Assembly (NCBI GenBank): GCA_021157965.1
Contig: JAGGVO010000059.1
Span: forward strand, 1-64,000
From: Candidatus Neomarinimicrobiota bacterium
Lineage (GTDB): Bacteria; Fidelibacterota; Fidelibacteria; Fidelibacterales; Fidelibacteraceae
Direction of reading: 5' to 3'
DNA length: 64,000 bases
The notes beneath the pieces were generated by a model. It made no database searches. It was given only the letters and a program-made list of their open reading frames with translations, and was not told the DNA's origin. Positions 19,991-27,667 of this stretch are shown here, in pieces. Both the position numbers and the translations under genes were made by a program. The stretch's first letter is position 1. Each line of letters begins with the position of its first letter.

Positions 19991-20782
19991 CTATGAAAAG
20001 AGAGTGAGAGATTGGATAAAATCCCGGATTTTTTGGGGCAGTTTTTCTGACGGGGTTTTCTCCAGGTGTTTAATAAAAGCTGTTCCAATAATAACCCCGT
20101 CGGCATATTGCGTATAAAAAGCGATATCTTCCCTGGATCGAATCCCAAAACCCACCAGGAAAGGATGTTGCAGTGATTGTTTCAGACTTTTTAAAAAAGT
20201 TTGAATTTCTGCGTCATGACGGCTTTTTTTTCCGGTAACCCCCTTATAGGCCACGGTATAAATAAAGGAAGTACTGGTCCGGTCAATGGCCTGAATCCGT
20301 TCGGAAGAGGCATTAGGGGGCAGCAGATGAACCAGGTCCAGGTTGAATTTCTCCAGGAGGGGATGTAAAGGCCGGCTTTCTTCCAGGGGTAAATCCGGAA
20401 TAATCAGTCCGTTGGCACCCCACAAACTTGCCTGCTGCAAAAAGGTGTCAATACCATAGCGGTGGACAGGATTGAGATAGGTCATAAGCAGAATGGGGAT
20501 GGAAGAAACCTGGCGGACCTCTTTTAGAATTTCAAAAGTATGTGAGATTCTGAACCCGTTCAGTAAGGCGGTTTGTGATGCCTCCTGGATAACCGGTCCA
20601 TCGGCCATGGGATCGGAAAATGGAATCCCAAGTTCAACAAAATCCACACCGGCTTTATCCAGCTCGATAATGATTTGTGGAGTATCATGAAGATGGGGAT
20701 AACCGGCGGTGATGTAAATGGAGAGTAATGTATCACCGGTGGCTTTTTTTTCACGGATCAGGGTATTCAGTGCTTGATTCAT
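19991..20782 (-). CDS. trpA: Tryptophan synthase alpha chain
   Basis: Cleaves indole-3-glycerol phosphate to indole and glyceraldehyde 3-phosphate; indole passes by tunnel to TrpB. The 263-residue TIM barrel shows the catalytic glutamate in [20 protein letters not shown] and the catalytic aspartate region [10 protein letters not shown], then [11 protein letters not shown] and phosphate-binding [10 protein letters not shown]. The ATG overlaps the trpB stop by 4 bases. Last gene of the trp operon. Confidence 0.96.
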
Positions 20783-21972
20783 ACGTGTCCTTTTTTATTA
20801 AGGTATTGTGTGTAGACCTTCATATCTTTATCTCCCCGGCCACTGAGGTTCACGACAATAATCGTGTTTTTTTTCGTACCGGGAGCCGTTTTTTCCAGGA
20901 AGGCCAGGGCGTGTGCGCTTTCAAGGGCCGGAATAATCCCCTCAAGGCGGCATAAAAGAAAAGCAGCCTTCAAAGCTTCTTCGTCTGTCGCACTTACATA
21001 GCGGACCCGCCGGGTTTCAAATAAATAGCTGTGTTCCGGCCCTACACCAGGATAATCAAGTCCTGCAGAAAGAGAATGGGCCAGCTGGACCTGGCCGTCG
21101 TAATCCTGAAGCAGATAACTTTTCATACCGTGAAAGATGCCGGTATGACCTTTCGTAAGGGTAGCAGCGTGTTTGCCTGTTTCCAGGCCGCATCCTGCTG
21201 CTTCCACACCAACCATCTCTACTTCAGGATGTTTTAACATGGGATAAAAAAGTCCAAGAGCATTGCTTCCGCCACCGACACAGGCCAGCAAAATATCCGG
21301 AAGCCTTTTTTCCTTTTTGTTAACCTGTTTGATAACCTCCTGCCCGATGATTTTCTGAAAATGACGCACAATCACAGGAAAAGGATGAGGTCCTACAACA
21401 GACCCGATAATGTAATGCGTGGTGTCACTGTTGGCGATCCAGTCTCTTAAGGCTTCGTTTGTAGCATCCTTCAGAGTCTTTGTTCCTGTACGTACCGGAA
21501 CAACCTCTGCTCCCAGCATCTGCATTCTGTCTACATTGGGTTTCTGGCGCTCCATATCTTCTATCCCCATGTAAATAGAACATTCCAGTCCTGCTCGTGC
21601 AGCAACAGTGGCTGTGGCAACGCCGTGCTGTCCTGCACCGGTCTCTGCAATAATCCGCCTTTTCTCCATGAATTGTGCTAATAAGATTTGTCCCAGCGTA
21701 TTGTTGATTTTATGAGCACCGGTATGACATAAATCCTCTCTTTTTAAATAGATACGCCCTCCGCCATAATGACGGGTCAGGTTTTCTGCAAAATAGAGAG
21801 GTGTAGGTCTTCCTGCGTATTCTCTCAGGTCGGACAAATAGAGTTTTTGATAATCCCGCTTTTTCCGGAAAGTGTGAAAGGCCTGTTCCAGTTCACTCAA
21901 CGCCGGCCGGAGGACCTCCGGGGCAAAGCAACCACCGTACGGACCAAAATATCCTTTAAGATTGGATGTCAT
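20779..21972 (-). CDS. trpB: Tryptophan synthase beta chain
   Basis: PLP enzyme joining indole and serine to tryptophan. I start it at ATG 21970-21972 ([18 protein letters not shown]), which matches the conserved family N-terminus and has GGAG 8 bases before it; a longer frame runs back into trpF. Features are the PLP lysine in [14 protein letters not shown], the ammonium-tunnel region [14 protein letters not shown], the GGGSNALG phosphate loop and the C-terminal LSGRGDKDM. 397 residues, normal for TrpB1. Overlaps trpF by 17 bases. Confidence 0.96.
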
Positions 21973-22639
21973 AGATGATCTCCGCTTTCTTCTCTGTTTC
22001 TTTTTTTCGAAGTTGTTCCATATTAAAAGCATGAACACTGGTAATCAATGCCCGGATTTTTTGAAAATCTTTTTTACCGGGGACTGATTCTGAACCGCCT
22101 GCAATATCGATGATTGCAGGGTGGACTTCTTCCAGGGCATCCCGGATAGTATCACGGGTTATTCCTCCTGCTAAGATGAGTGCTTCCCGGGGAATTGAAC
22201 CGGGAATTGTTTCCCAGGCAAAAGATTTTCCTGTGCCTCCATAAGTCTTTTTGGAAAAGGTATCGATTAAAATCATATCCGGTGGCTTTAGATCCTGGAT
22301 CATTGCTTTTTTTACATTTTCCACGCCCCGAAAGGCCCAGATAACGGGGAAAGGAAAGGAATGAAAGATTTCAAAATCCTTTGGCTCATATACCTGCATA
22401 ACCCGGCAGCCCGTGCGTTTCTGAAGCGTAACAAGTTCTTTTGCGGTTGGGCGAACTACAATACCCACAGGACTCACGTAGAAGGGAAGATGACGAATCA
22501 TGTCGGCGGCTTTATCCGGTGATATATAGCGGGGACTTTCGGGATAAAAAATGAAACCAAGGATGGATATGCCATGTTCTACGGCCAGAAAAGCATCTGC
22601 ACGGGAGGTAAAACCACAAATTTTTAGTTGGGTCATCAT
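21956..22639 (-). CDS. trpF: Phosphoribosylanthranilate isomerase
   Basis: Amadori rearrangement of phosphoribosylanthranilate. The 227-residue barrel starts TQLKICGFT with the catalytic cysteine of K-I-C-G, has [12 protein letters not shown], the catalytic aspartate in ILIDTF, and the phosphate-binding ILAGGIT. The C-terminal motif is IDIAGGSES instead of the usual VDVSSGVE, a mild divergence. It carries a lysine-rich tail of about 20 residues past the usual end. Overlaps trpC by 4 bases (ATGA). Confidence 0.93.
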
Positions 22640-23460
22640 TGGAGTTTCTCCACAGCGGTTTTAAAATCTTTCAGTAAATGGCCGGGGTTCTGTGCCCGCA
22701 TGAGAGATTCACCGATGAGGGCTCCGCGAAAGCCGTTATTTGCCAGTTTGCGGCATAAGTCTGACGTTCTGATACCACTTTCACTGATGACGGGTACATT
22801 TTTTGGAAGAGCGGATTTCAGTGTGAATGAATTCTCGGGATCAACACGGAAAGTTCGTAAATCCCGGTTATTGATTCCCAGAATCAAATGTTGATGGACC
22901 GGAATTTTTTTTACATCTTCCAGGGTATGCAGTTCAAAAAGAATATCGAGTCCGCATGCAGCGGCTGTGGTACAAAGCTCATGGATTTTATTTTTCGACA
23001 AAAGGGCTGCAATCAACAGAATCACATCTGCTCCGGCGGCTTTAGCTTCGTAAACCTGGTAAGGATCAATGATAAAATCTTTATAAAGAATGGGCAAAGA
23101 AATAGCCTGCCGAACCTGCTGTACATTGTGGGGATTTCCCAGAAAAAAATGTTCTTCCGTGAGAACCGAAACAGCTGAAGCACCGTTCTTTTCATAGAGC
23201 CGGGCCTGGTGGACCGGGTTAAAATTTTTACGGATGATTCCCCGGGATGGAGAGGCCTTTTTTATTTCACAGATAAAATGAAAAGCGGTATCCTTTATCA
23301 TTTGACGGTATAACGACCGGGTTTTACTCGTGGCCAGGGCTGCTTCTTTTAAACGGCTTATGGGAAGTTCGGACTTTTTCCGGCTCAGATCGTGTTGTTT
23401 ACGGCTTAGGATCTCATCCAGAAAATGATGCTTCAGGGATGTTAGATGAGGGGTTGCCAT
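22636..23460 (-). CDS. trpC: Indole-3-glycerol phosphate synthase
   Basis: Closes the indole ring, releasing CO2. The 274-residue barrel has the catalytic lysines in ICEIKKASPSRG and ILYKDFIID, the glutamate in FELHTLEDV, ILGINNRDLRTF and VISESGIRTS. Start ATG 23458-23460 with GGAGG 6 bases upstream; the longer frame overlapping trpD has no such site. Forty bases separate it from trpD, the widest gap between the structural genes of this operon. Confidence 0.95.
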   Translation of the reverse strand: MATPHLTSLKHHFLDEILSRKQHDLSRKKSELPISRLKEAALATSKTRSLYRQMIKDTAFHFICEIKKASPSRGIIRKNFNPVHQARLYEKNGASAVSVLTEEHFFLGNPHNVQQVRQAISLPILYKDFIIDPYQVYEAKAAGADVILLIAALLSKNKIHELCTTAAACGLDILFELHTLEDVKKIPVHQHLILGINNRDLRTFRVDPENSFTLKSALPKNVPVISESGIRTSDLCRKLANNGFRGALIGESLMRAQNPGHLLKDFKTAVEKLQ

Positions 23461-23500
23461 GATGCCTCCAGTGAGTGTATAGGGTGATTTTTCACTTGCT

Positions 23501-24520
23501 TTATACAGAATAGATCCTGCTAAGCTTCCGAAGGGCATGGAGTTTAGCAAGAGCTGCTCCGCTGTCGATCATTTCTTCTGCATGTTCAATGCCTTCGGGG
23601 ATCCCGGATACTTTTCCCGCTACGTAAAAGGCAAAAGCAGCATTCAAGATGATCATGTCCCGGGCGGAATTTTTTTCTCCGGACAATAAGGCCGTGATTT
23701 TGTGGGCATTGTCATGACTGTTTGTTCCATAGAGAGTTTCTCTCCCATTTCCCGGGGGTGTTTCGTGATGATAGGTATATTCACGAATATGACCATTATC
23801 AATTTCATAAATGTAATTGGATGCAAAGGGTGAAACTTCATCGTAACCGTCATCACTGTGGACCGTACAGGCTTTGGTGTGTCCTTTCATAAGCATGACT
23901 TCCGCCAGTTTCTTTGCTGTTTCCCGGTTATAAGTCCCTACTAATTGACGACGTACACCCGCCGGATTCATGAGAGGTCCCAGCATATTGAAAATGGTTC
24001 GCAATCCCAGGTTTTTGCGATGGGGAAGCACGGCTTTCATGACCGGATGATATCGGGGAGCAAAGAGAAAACCAATACCAGTTTCCCTGATACAGGTCAA
24101 TACCTCACTCGGTCCCAGATTAATATTGATTCCAAGAGCTTCTAATACATCGGCCGATCCACACTGGCTTGATACAGACCGGTTACCGTGTTTAGCCACG
24201 GGGACACCTCCGGCAGATACGATAAACGCACTGACCGTGGAGATGTTTAATGAGTGTTTATTATCTCCACCTGTTCCGCAGACATCAATGGCATCATCCA
24301 TGGCGAGCTCGACTCTCACCATGTGTTTCTCCATCGTATCTACAAAACCTAATATTTCCTCTACTGATTCCCCTTTCATACGGAGTCCTATTAACAAGGC
24401 TCCGATTTCTCCAGGAGTGACAGTCCCGTTGATGATTTTTTCCAATACCTGAGCTGCCTCCCGGCGTGATAAATCCTCGCCATTGACGATTTTTTCCAAA
24501 AAGGGTTTTAATGTTTCCAT
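23501..24520 (-). CDS. trpD: Anthranilate phosphoribosyltransferase
   Basis: Transfers phosphoribose from PRPP to anthranilate. Typical 339-residue length with the PRPP loops DVCGTGGDNKHSLNIST, KHGNRSVSSQCGSADVLEALG and the NMLGPLMNPAG motif; D-D of SDDGYDEVSP binds magnesium. It is a stand-alone enzyme, not fused to TrpG. Start overlaps the trpG stop by 13 bases. Confidence 0.96.
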   Translation of the reverse strand: METLKPFLEKIVNGEDLSRREAAQVLEKIINGTVTPGEIGALLIGLRMKGESVEEILGFVDTMEKHMVRVELAMDDAIDVCGTGGDNKHSLNISTVSAFIVSAGGVPVAKHGNRSVSSQCGSADVLEALGININLGPSEVLTCIRETGIGFLFAPRYHPVMKAVLPHRKNLGLRTIFNMLGPLMNPAGVRRQLVGTYNRETAKKLAEVMLMKGHTKACTVHSDDGYDEVSPFASNYIYEIDNGHIREYTYHHETPPGNGRETLYGTNSHDNAHKITALLSGEKNSARDMIILNAAFAFYVAGKVSGIPEGIEHAEEMIDSGAALAKLHALRKLSRIYSV

Positions 24521-25128
24521 GGTTCCTCCGTGTGTTGTTTATTTTCAGATGATTCTTTTATAATAAAGGCATCCAGCCAGTTATGAATCAGGGTTTCTCC
24601 AAAAGAGGTGAGAATGGATTCAGGATGAAACTGGACTCCTGAAACCGGATATTCCCTGTGATGGATTCCCATGATCAAACCGTCTTTTGTCCGGGCATCG
24701 ACGCATAATGAAGGAGGAAGGGAATGAGGATCAGCAACCAGGGAATGATAGCGGGTTGCAAAGAAAGGAGAGGGAATTTGCCGGTACAGGATGTATCCAT
24801 TATGGAAAATTTCCGATGTTTTCCCGTGAACCGGATTCTTTTCCTGAATGATTTTTCCTCCAAAAGCAGCAGCGATACACTGGTGTCCCAGGCAGACGCC
24901 CAGGACAGGAATATCCCGGTAAAATGTTTGGATAACCGCTAGAGAAATTCCTGCTTTTTCCGGATATCCCGGACCAGGAGAAATGACAATGCCATCGGGG
25001 TTAAGTTGGCGGATATAATCAATATCTGCCTCGTTATTGCGGATAACGTGTATCTTTTCACCGCGACTCCCAAATATTTGTACGAGGTTGTAGGTGAAAG
25101 AGTCGAAGTTATCAATGAATAAAATCAT
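24508..25128 (-). CDS. trpG: Anthranilate synthase glutaminase subunit
   Basis: Class I glutamine amidotransferase that supplies ammonia to TrpE. ATG at 25128 follows GGGAGGG and gives the canonical start ILFIDNFDSFTYNLVQ; a longer frame overlaps trpE. Catalytic triad: Cys of VLGVCLGHQCIAAAFGG, His and Glu of VQFHPESILT. 206 residues. Overlaps trpE by 17 bases and trpD by 13. Confidence 0.95.
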   Translation of the reverse strand: MILFIDNFDSFTYNLVQIFGSRGEKIHVIRNNEADIDYIRQLNPDGIVISPGPGYPEKAGISLAVIQTFYRDIPVLGVCLGHQCIAAAFGGKIIQEKNPVHGKTSEIFHNGYILYRQIPSPFFATRYHSLVADPHSLPPSLCVDARTKDGLIMGIHHREYPVSGVQFHPESILTSFGETLIHNWLDAFIIKESSENKQHTEEPWKH

Positions 25129-26590
25129 GAATTCCCTCCCCGGCTTTTTCAATGGCTTTGAGCATGGCTTCGGCTTTATGTCCCGTTTCTTCATATTCCT
25201 TTTCGGGGATACTATCGGCAACAATTCCTGCCCCTGCCTGAATATAGAGCCTGTTATTTTTGGCAATCAGGGTTCGGATGGCGATGCATGTATCGGAATT
25301 TCCTGAATAATCAAAGTAACCGACGGCACCGGAATAAATACCCCGCTTTTCCGGTTCCAGTTCGTGAATGATTTCCATGGCCCGGATTTTTGGCGCTCCG
25401 CTGACGGTACCAGCGGGAAAAGCTGCTTTAAAAGCATCAATGGCGCGAAAATCCTGCCGTAAATGTCCCCGGACCCGGGATATAATATGCATCACATGAG
25501 AATACCGTTCGATTGTTTGAAAATCTTCCACCCGGATACTACCATATTCAGCAATGCGTCCCATATCATTCCTGGCCAGGTCTACCAGCATGACGTGTTC
25601 AGCCTGTTCCTTGGGATCTTTTAACAGGTCCCGGGAATTGGCTTCGTCATCCTCACGGCTCTGTCCCCGGGGACGCGTCCCTGCAATGGGAATGATTTCC
25701 AGTTCGTGATCCTGGCACCGGATCAGGGGCTCGGGAGAAGAACCGATAATCTGGTATCCACCACAATCCAGATAAAAGAGGTAAGGGGAAGGGTTGATAG
25801 TGCGAAGAGAACGATAGATATGAAAGGCATCGCCACTGAAATCCATGTGAAAACGCCGGGATAAGACGGTTTGAAAGATATCACCTGTCCTGATGTATTC
25901 CTTCGCCCTGGAAACTGCCTGTGTAAAATCTTCTTTTTTAAAATTTACCGAAAGACTCTCAGGAATAGCTGTGAATGACGTTTTCAGATCTGTTACAATC
26001 CGGATTTTATCATGCATGACTTCCAGCCGGGATCGGGCATCCTGGTACAAAGAAGGAAGATTGCGCGTATTGTCCACAAAAACATTCGCGATAAGAATGA
26101 CTTCATTTTTTAAATGATCAAAGGCAATCAGGTCTTTATAAAAAGCCATTAGTGCATTGTCTGTTCCGATGGGATCCCTTTTAGGAGTTGGAAGCACTTC
26201 ATATTCCCGGACCATTTCGTATCCGATAAATCCCACTGCGCCACAGGTAAACCGGGGAAGTCCTTCCCGGTGAACCGGCGTATATTGGGATAAAAGTTCG
26301 GATAATCTTTCAAAAAAGGATGTTTTCCCGGATGTATTTTCTTCTCCGGAACCGGTTTCCATAATCCCGGTGCCGGTATCTTTTAAAAGGTGAAAAGGAG
26401 AAAAACCGATAAAAGAATATCGACCCAGGTGTTCACCTTTGAGGACGCTTTCCAATAAGAATGAATGGTGTCCAGGCTGTCTCATTTTTAAATACACCAT
26501 TACGGGAGTTACAAAATCTCCGTTAAACCGTTCAAAGACGGGAATTATTGTTTTAGGAGATGCTATTTGCCTGAATTCTTCAAATGTCAT
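25112..26590 (-). CDS. trpE: Anthranilate synthase component I
   Basis: Converts chorismate and ammonia to anthranilate. The 492-residue protein has the N-terminal feedback domain with LLESVLKGEHLGRYSFIG (the family's tryptophan-binding L-L-E-S region) and the chorismate-binding domain: RTGDIFQTVLSRRF, IAGTRPRGQS, E-H-V-M-L-V-D-L-A-R-N-D, FPAGTVSGAPKIRAMEII and the C-terminal AGAGIVADS. First structural gene of the operon, behind a leader peptide and attenuator (26624-26765). Confidence 0.96.
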   Translation of the reverse strand: MTFEEFRQIASPKTIIPVFERFNGDFVTPVMVYLKMRQPGHHSFLLESVLKGEHLGRYSFIGFSPFHLLKDTGTGIMETGSGEENTSGKTSFFERLSELLSQYTPVHREGLPRFTCGAVGFIGYEMVREYEVLPTPKRDPIGTDNALMAFYKDLIAFDHLKNEVILIANVFVDNTRNLPSLYQDARSRLEVMHDKIRIVTDLKTSFTAIPESLSVNFKKEDFTQAVSRAKEYIRTGDIFQTVLSRRFHMDFSGDAFHIYRSLRTINPSPYLFYLDCGGYQIIGSSPEPLIRCQDHELEIIPIAGTRPRGQSREDDEANSRDLLKDPKEQAEHVMLVDLARNDMGRIAEYGSIRVEDFQTIERYSHVMHIISRVRGHLRQDFRAIDAFKAAFPAGTVSGAPKIRAMEIIHELEPEKRGIYSGAVGYFDYSGNSDTCIAIRTLIAKNNRLYIQAGAGIVADSIPEKEYEETGHKAEAMLKAIEKAGEGIHDFIH

Positions 26591-26623: not shown

Positions 26624-26730
26624 AAAAAGCCCACTTATTCCTAAGTGGGCCGGGTAAGTGTTTGTTTTTCTTTAACAGTTATGTTTTACAAAAACACACC
26701 CCTCCCACGATGGTATTTTTCCACCACCGG
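26624..26730 (-). promoter_or_regulatory. Transcription attenuator of the trp operon
   Basis: Minus strand. Terminator: GCCCACTTA-ggaa-TAAGTGGGC plus five T (26650 down to 26624). Antiterminator: GTGGGAGGG (26708-26700) can pair with CCCGGCCCAC (26654-26645), which contains the 5' arm of the terminator. Protector hairpin: GGTGGT (26728-26723), inside the tandem Trp codons, pairs with ACCATC (26714-26709), next to the antiterminator arm. This is the standard four-segment layout, so ribosome stalling at Trp codons would favour the antiterminator. Confidence 0.85.
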
Positions 26731-26765
26731 TTTATATTGAGTATGATGTGTGTTCTGTTTTTCAT
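26679..26765 (-). CDS. trpL: trp operon leader peptide with tandem Trp codons
   Basis: A 28-residue open frame, ATG 26765 to TAA 26679, whose codons 14 and 15 are both TGG (M-K-N-R-T-H-I-I-L-N-I-N-R-W-W-K...). Trp is rare, and two adjacent Trp codons immediately before a terminator/antiterminator structure upstream of trpE define a leader peptide. Its ribosome-binding site is weak (GAGAAAAA). It senses charged tRNA-Trp through ribosome stalling. Confidence 0.85.
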   Translation of the reverse strand: MKNRTHIILNINRWWKNTIVGGVCFCKT

Positions 26766-26794: not shown

Positions 26795-26822
26795 TTTATA
26801 ACGTTTCTATTTATAGAATCAA
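26795..26822 (-). promoter_or_regulatory. Candidate trp promoter
   Basis: On the minus strand TTGATT (26822-26817), 16 bases, TATAAA (26800-26795), placing the start of transcription about 20 bases before the trpL ATG. Match to the sigma-70 consensus is fair; lineages of the FCB group may use a different -10/-7 pattern. Confidence 0.4.
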
Positions 26823-26942
26823 GGAGAATGATTTGACCTCATTTGTGGGAATCGATGAGATTATTTTTTATTGTTATTTTTCTTTTGAGCCAATAACTTA
26901 ATTTCCAATTGCAAATTACATAAAAGTAAAAGATGAAATGTG

Positions 26943-27332
26943 ATGATTAAAATTTTTTTCCTTATGGCAGGTGGAGCATTGGGAACCCTGGCTCGCTACG
27001 GGGTGTCCGGTATTTCCTACCGGTTGTTTAATACGACATTCCCTTATGGCACACTGGTCGTTAACTTGATTGGATCTCTTTTAATAGGTTTTCTTTGGGG
27101 ATTCTGGGAGTTGGAGCATATTCCGGTAAATATTAAAGTTTTTGTTTTTATTGGTATCCTGGGAGGTTTTACGACCTTTTCATCCTTTATGCTGGAAACC
27201 TTGAATTTGTTGAGAGAAGGGGAAATTAAATTTGTGCTGATAAATATTTTATTAAACAATATGTTAGGCTTATTGTTTGTATTTTGGGGGTACTTTTTTG
27301 CTAAATTTTTTGTACAGGGAGTCAGGCCATGA
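26943..27332 (+). CDS. crcB: Fluoride channel CrcB/Fluc
   Basis: Small membrane protein that exports fluoride as a dual-topology dimer. Four hydrophobic helices, family motifs GGALGTLARYGVS, FPYGTLVVNLIGSLLIGF and the G-F-T-T-F-S-S-F stretch with the phenylalanines that line the pore. A GTG directly upstream (26940) is an alternative start. It overlaps the DUF190 gene by 4 bases. No fluoride riboswitch is recognisable before it. Confidence 0.94.
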   Translation: MIKIFFLMAGGALGTLARYGVSGISYRLFNTTFPYGTLVVNLIGSLLIGFLWGFWELEHIPVNIKVFVFIGILGGFTTFSSFMLETLNLLREGEIKFVLINILLNNMLGLLFVFWGYFFAKFFVQGVRP

Positions 27333-27667
27333 AACTACCGGATGAGGGTATTTTATTACGCGTATTTATTGGTGAAGGAGATACATATCATGGCAAACCT
27401 CTTTATGAGGCCATTGTCATGAAAGCCCGTGAACTCAATATTGCAGGCGCCACGGTGACCCGGGGTATCATGGGTTACGGCGCGGACAGCCGTATTCATT
27501 CGTCTAAATTTCTCAGATTGTCTGAAGATTTGCCGGTGATTATTGAAATTGTAGACCACGAGGAGAGAATTAAACAAATCATCCCTTTTCTCGATGAAAC
27601 GGTTAAGGACGGTTTGATTACCCGGGAAAAAGTGTCTGTTATGTTTTACAGGCACCGATCCTCCTGA
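27329..27667 (+). CDS. DUF190 family protein (COG1993)
   Basis: A 112-residue PII-like small protein: L-L-R-V-F-I-G-E at the start, ARELNIAGATVTRGIMGYG in the middle and a beta-strand VMFYRH at the end. DUF190 proteins are often encoded right after crcB, as here with a 4-base overlap, and are thought to be accessory or regulatory to fluoride export; their biochemistry is not settled. A weak hairpin followed by six T overlaps the stop codon. Confidence 0.88.
   Translation: MKLPDEGILLRVFIGEGDTYHGKPLYEAIVMKARELNIAGATVTRGIMGYGADSRIHSSKFLRLSEDLPVIIEIVDHEERIKQIIPFLDETVKDGLITREKVSVMFYRHRSS

Follow-up and report, generated by a model that had tools for sequence, protein, structure and literature searches.

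In Escherichia coli, the trp leader (trpL, Rfam RF00513) combines a short open reading frame (ORF) containing tandem Trp codons with alternative 1:2, 2:3 and 3:4 pairings and a T-tailed terminator before trpE. Multivalent leaders also exist for branched-chain amino acids, as in ilvGMEDA with its Ile, Val and Leu codons. According to a published survey, amino-acid leader attenuators are, a few exceptions aside, proteobacterial or actinobacterial (PMC2965389), and the attenuator motifs of Rfam have been suggested to arise in gamma-proteobacteria with few transfers (PMC3766115). The trp attenuators of Corynebacterium and Streptomyces carry two or three UGG codons in their leader peptides and have GC-rich poly-U terminators (PMC1262725). 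On the basis of terminator structures in Merino's database, attenuators have also been predicted before tyrA-containing aromatic supra-operons (PMC1173090, Table 7).

By every feature that can be tested in sequence, the element preceding trpE in a 64,000-nucleotide stretch of Marinimicrobia DNA (the window) qualifies as a trp attenuator of the classical kind, with the same set of elements as E. coli trpL. A sequence-only reading had proposed it as a case in an FCB-type genome that would widen the range of the mechanism, best known in Proteobacteria and some Actinobacteria. The host is a member of Marinimicrobia, a phylum placed in the FCB superphylum, and the case would extend the range to Marinimicrobia; occurrence outside Proteobacteria alone is not new, since actinobacterial attenuators and a his case in Firmicutes have been published.

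The trp leader and its alternative structures

The leader precedes an operon of the order trpEGDCFBA, which is followed by a gene for a TPR protein. No aro, phe or tyr gene was found after trpA in the window, making the operon trp-only. The features are as follows.

26817-26822, minus strand: putative -35 element, TTGATT
26795-26800, minus strand: putative -10 element, TATAAA, 16-nt spacer
26679-26765, minus strand: trpL leader peptide ORF, MKNRTHIILNINRWWKNTIVGGVCFCKT, 28 codons plus TAA
26721-26726, minus strand: tandem Trp control codons TGG TGG, codons 14-15
26688-26758, minus strand: 1:2 protector, 26758-26753/26693-26688, 26751-26745/26700-26694, 26741-26738/26707-26704 and tip hairpin 26729-26722/26715-26708 (8 bp) on the Trp codons
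26645-26708, minus strand: 2:3 antiterminator, 26708-26704/26649-26645 (5 pairs), 26701-26697/26656-26652 (5) and 26696-26690/26669-26663 (7)
26624-26651, minus strand: 3:4 intrinsic terminator, hairpin 26651-26628 (10 bp, 4-nt loop), T-run 26628-26624 (five T), -16.4 kcal/mol
25112-26590, minus strand: trpE, anthranilate synthase component I (PF04715 and PF00425)
24508-25131, minus strand: trpG (PF00117), start inferred at MILFIDNF inside ORF 25266-24508
23501-24520, minus strand: trpD (PF00591)
22636-23550, minus strand: trpC (PF00218), true start probably further inside
21956-22639, minus strand: trpF (PF00697)
20779-22038, minus strand: trpB (PF00291 and TrpB match), true start probably further inside
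19991-20782, minus strand: trpA (PF00290), final trp gene

Translation confirmed the 28-codon leader with Trp codons 14 and 15 described earlier, ahead of trpE with its start at 26590, and the frame and Trp codons are retained in the relatives L083 and L084. The window leader is a short ORF with clustered Trp codons behind a putative promoter. The proposed -35 element reads TTGATT or TTGACT in the alignment with L083 and L084, and TAAA of the -10 element is conserved in relatives; a consensus scan did not report the TTGATT.

The 181-nt leader folds with -48.7 kcal/mol (z = -4.6), and 0 of 200 shuffles were equally good. The folding that had been proposed as a check yielded both alternative structures. 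The T-tailed terminator was confirmed at 26651-26624, between leader ORF and trpE. An antiterminator exists as well, larger than the 8 pairs first assigned to it (5 + 5 + 7); in a fold of 26713-26640, with a ribosome on Trp14 and the 3' arm of the terminator not yet made, it reaches -22.7 kcal/mol and sequesters CCCAC of the terminator 5' arm. When the ribosome is placed at the stop codon, the terminator alone remains in the fold (-16.4 kcal/mol). A mutually exclusive antiterminator that is freed by a ribosome on the Trp codons was thus found in the folds and in relatives: its consensus fold with L083 and L084 has -21.2 kcal/mol, and segment 2 of the window pairs with the terminator arm better than shuffles do (p = 0.02). 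The 8-bp hairpin on the Trp codons, the one part of the protector noticed at the outset, is present and caps a more extensive 1:2 structure of 25 pairs (-25.0 kcal/mol) that holds all of segment 2 when there is no translation and so favours termination. The protector consensus of three relatives comprises 29 pairs, two of them changed on both sides, and the antiterminator consensus likewise has two pairs with two-sided changes; this covariation is thin because it comes from only three close-clade sequences.

The element is very probably a classical ribosome-mediated transcription attenuator of trpEGDCFBA, and from its anatomy a promoter, translation of the leader, stalling and a response to tryptophan are predicted. 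Transcripts would begin ahead of the leader ORF, whose 28 codons would be translated by a ribosome. At low supply of Trp-tRNA, the ribosome would stop at codons 14-15 and cover protector segment 1, so that segment 2 (26708-26690, inside the ORF) could pair with 26669-26645, including part of the terminator 5' arm, and RNA polymerase would continue into trpE. With plentiful Trp-tRNA, the ribosome would reach the stop codon at 26679 and cover segment 2, whereupon the terminator 26651-26624 would form and transcription would end. Untranslated leader RNA would keep segment 2 in the 1:2 protector, which should also favour termination. Once the complete terminator is transcribed, the minimum-energy fold contains it even with a stalled ribosome; antitermination must therefore be kinetic and require the antiterminator to fold before the terminator does, as is usual for such attenuators.

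Across the window, tRNA is the sole Rfam match at gathering score. RF00513 (Trp_leader) is the best weak match in a 341-base search (25.2 bits, E = 0.0043) and stays below its gathering threshold of 41 bits, which speaks against filing the leader in that RNA family and not against the mechanism. The next gene upstream is crcB (PF02537; 26940-27332, plus strand), followed by a short DUF190-like ORF (both within 26940-27667, plus strand); no fluoride riboswitch at Rfam gathering score was found near crcB in the window search. As crcB is divergent, the terminator can act on the trp transcript only.

Conservation within and beyond Marinimicrobia

The search for TrpE covered 245 phylum genomes, and the upstream DNA was read for 65 genomes from 15 families. 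A leader call required a terminator behind an ORF in which either two Trp lie within four residues or one Trp lies among at least three Tyr/Phe. Leader plus terminator were called in 56 of the 65 genomes and in 14 of the 15 families, compared to 0 of 1400 dinucleotide shuffles (20 per sequence). AT-rich DNA often contains short ORFs and hairpins, and one could imagine that the terminator ends an upstream transcript and that the ORF arose by chance. The probability of this is practically negligible given the divergent upstream gene and the failure of shuffles to reproduce ORF and terminator together, and conservation across families already contradicts it.

Tandem Trp codons are present in all three family f1 genomes with full-length TrpE, as the comparison of trpE upstream regions suggested at the outset revealed. 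No relative was seen to keep the terminator while losing the Trp codons or the frame, the case named beforehand as one that would refute attenuation. Nine genomes have no called leader: two each of f6 and f14, one of f9 and four of f15, where one sequence is truncated by the end of its contig. A Trp-rich short ORF is present in at least G050 and G232 among these nine. Leaders read by hand comprise L112 (MMKMKNQKLNQNWWWEKLRKWHFPGHDDE), where the automatic call took the wrong ORF, that of G213 (L336) and six that the automatic call missed. Among named relatives, 'Marinimicrobia bacterium 46_43' (L002) is the closest, with a TrpE that is 87% identical, as is that of G005 from the same genus. Three other genomes of this genus (G001, G003 and G004) gave no TrpE match at E<=0.001, while G001 and G004 keep hisG; they are possibly Trp auxotrophs or affected by assembly gaps. 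TrpE matches extend past an in-frame stop in L094 (G030), L139 (G213) and several loci of the phylum of G289, where they probably overshoot the true C terminus by a few residues.

The duplex between the segment after the Trp codons and the terminator 5' arm is better than in shuffled spacers (Fisher's method on family medians, p = 8e-7), with p<0.05 for 27 of 57 individual leaders; in families f3 and f9 it was not above shuffled spacers. All anatomical elements of the attenuator are kept in relatives whose leader peptides have otherwise diverged. This bears on a further explanation, in which the short ORF encodes a functional small peptide acting in trans and the terminator merely separates it from trpE. 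Leader peptides can have such a role, as described for peTrpL of Sinorhizobium (PMC7298713), and a role in trans could coexist with attenuation. Outside the Trp cluster, however, the peptides are not conserved across families, whereas the alternative pairings are, and we regard a peptide function in place of attenuation as very unlikely.

Attenuation probably operates at two or more operons in the clade of the window, since the same genome (G000) has a His leader (MKKTLRHHHHHLHTSVGGTG; L260:1207-1269 on contig C51) with a T-tailed hairpin before hisG in addition to the trp leader. Similar hisG leaders occur in G001, G004 and G005 of the same genus and in G033, G047 and G050. A near-repeat array of AACGTCTGAACGTCTAAACG lies just upstream of the his leader (L260:1030-1160). 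The regions upstream of ilvB and pheA in this genome adjoin coding sequence and contain no leader.

Among 79 named trpE upstream regions from outside the phylum, leaders were called in three: an Ignavibacteriales metagenome-assembled genome (L003, the single example from that order), 'bacterium JZ-2' (L004) and the Paenibacillus locus L017, which was judged a spurious, probable chance match. The call at L205, too, is doubtful. A domain-wide sample gave calls in 3 of 60 trpE upstream regions, and two of these led to additional phyla. In that of G317 (40 genomes) leaders were found at 9 of 18 loci, for example with WWWW. The phylum of G289 has leader and terminator at 13 of 19 loci; at five further ones there is an ORF that is aromatic or rich in Trp, and no terminator was called. 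A tree built from TrpE, D, B and A does not place the trp operon of the window's family with most Marinimicrobia. The operon falls instead with the phylum of G317 and with f186 from the phylum of G289, a placement that suggests operon transfer or deep divergence.

Control codons and operon content

Most leaders outside the window's family contain mixtures of aromatic codons (YYSWYWFF, NYWWYY, YYWWFF, YWFWYWYYY). In 77 leaders, Tyr or Phe occupy 236 of the 560 positions that lie up to three residues from a Trp, compared to 97 of the other 1093 (permutation p = 5e-4, the lowest value that the test could give), and the enrichment holds with one leader per family. Parsing the downstream DNA of about 70 operons with Pfam revealed that many relatives' operons run past trpA into pheA, tyrA, DAHP synthase, aroA and aroE, with Tyr and Phe codons amid the Trp codons of their leaders. 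Supra-operons trpEGDCFBA-pheA-tyrA-DAHPS-aroA-aroE stand behind mixed leaders at L261, L263, L265, L267, L262 and L312-L338; the leader of G034 (MNNMNTKIYYSWYWFFSREGVL) is an example. A second attenuator was considered for the gap before DAHP synthase and rejected, as this position is mostly taken by a chorismate mutase gene, which lies between trpA and DAHPS in several Marinimicrobia supra-operons.

For 54 operons with a leader and sufficient downstream DNA, the residues within three of a Trp are 63% Tyr/Phe in the 37 trp+aro operons versus 13% in the 17 trp-only operons (p = 7e-9). Contrasts on the tree of TrpE, D, B and A, along which operon class changes five times, gave r = 0.60 (p = 1.4e-6). 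The peptides had been seen before the measure (a distance of up to three or four residues from a Trp) was fixed, some leaders were hand-picked and the tree was a quick one, so that the size of these effects matters more than the exact p values. The difference also appears within families: trp-only G504 has MCWWRQWWRTPG and G511 of the same family, with aro genes, RFYWSYWYWRQ, and trp-only G150 has YLIWFWRSIL compared to YYSWYWFF in the rest of its family; family f16 showed no leader contrast between operon classes. Operons with tyrA and without pheA have Tyr-dominated clusters with a Phe share of 0.22 versus 0.46 (p = 2e-5, uncorrected for relatedness). The window fits the rule, as its operon is trp-only and no Tyr or Phe occurs within three residues of a Trp.

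The Tyr/Phe codons are confined to the leader frame (62% versus 12% and 11% in the other frames), which rules out that they are a by-product of AT-rich DNA. The same confinement in supra-operons is left unexplained if a TRAP-like RNA-binding protein or T-box tRNA binding controlled the terminator and the short ORF were incidental, and so are the in-frame Trp codons in 56 of 65 genomes. Such mechanisms do control trp operons elsewhere, also with a terminator before trpE, and many control loci in Firmicutes have a terminator without a Trp ORF. Yet no T-box was found at gathering score in the window or among the weak matches on the leader, and the leader contains only about four scattered GAG/UAG triplets instead of the regular series that TRAP needs. 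Control of the window operon by either of these mechanisms is extremely unlikely.

Returning to attenuation by a translating ribosome, we infer from the leader sequences of the supra-operon relatives that the attenuator there senses Tyr and Phe in addition to Trp and would be a multivalent aromatic attenuator. It seems likely that in Marinimicrobia and in at least one of the phyla of G317 and G289, the control codons of one kind of leader-peptide attenuator have been adjusted to what the operon behind it makes: Trp alone for trp-only operons, Trp and Tyr for trp-tyrA-aro operons, and Trp, Tyr and Phe for trp-pheA-tyrA-aro operons. Slow translation of a Trp, Tyr or Phe codon would then each time switch on the whole aromatic pathway.

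Comparison with known attenuators

Our literature search, which covered few subscription journals, found neither a report of a leader peptide in Marinimicrobia nor a leader reading Trp, Tyr and Phe together. A trp attenuator that is nearly phylum-wide in Marinimicrobia, together with those elsewhere, indicates that the mechanism is much wider than assumed or evolved several times, and that attenuators of the Marinimicrobia type are overlooked by motif libraries. The correspondence between control codons and operon genes could serve as a predictive code, in which the leader peptide is read as a list of operon products. The attenuators predicted before tyrA-containing supra-operons concern other gene orders and organisms than those studied here, and a leader peptide is not mentioned for them (PMC1173090). 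The trp attenuators of Corynebacterium and Streptomyces are like that of the window in kind; they belong to another phylum, no shared sequence has been shown, and mixed aromatic codons are not reported in the accessible part of that source (PMC1262725). Compared to E. coli trpL, the window has a longer leader of 28 codons, its segment 2 lies inside the ORF and not after the stop codon, and its host belongs to a different phylum. The closest parallel to the supra-operon relatives is ilvGMEDA, where one leader likewise serves several products, as it presumably does in the relatives, with branched-chain in place of aromatic amino acids; the window itself differs from ilvGMEDA in that its leader would read Trp only.
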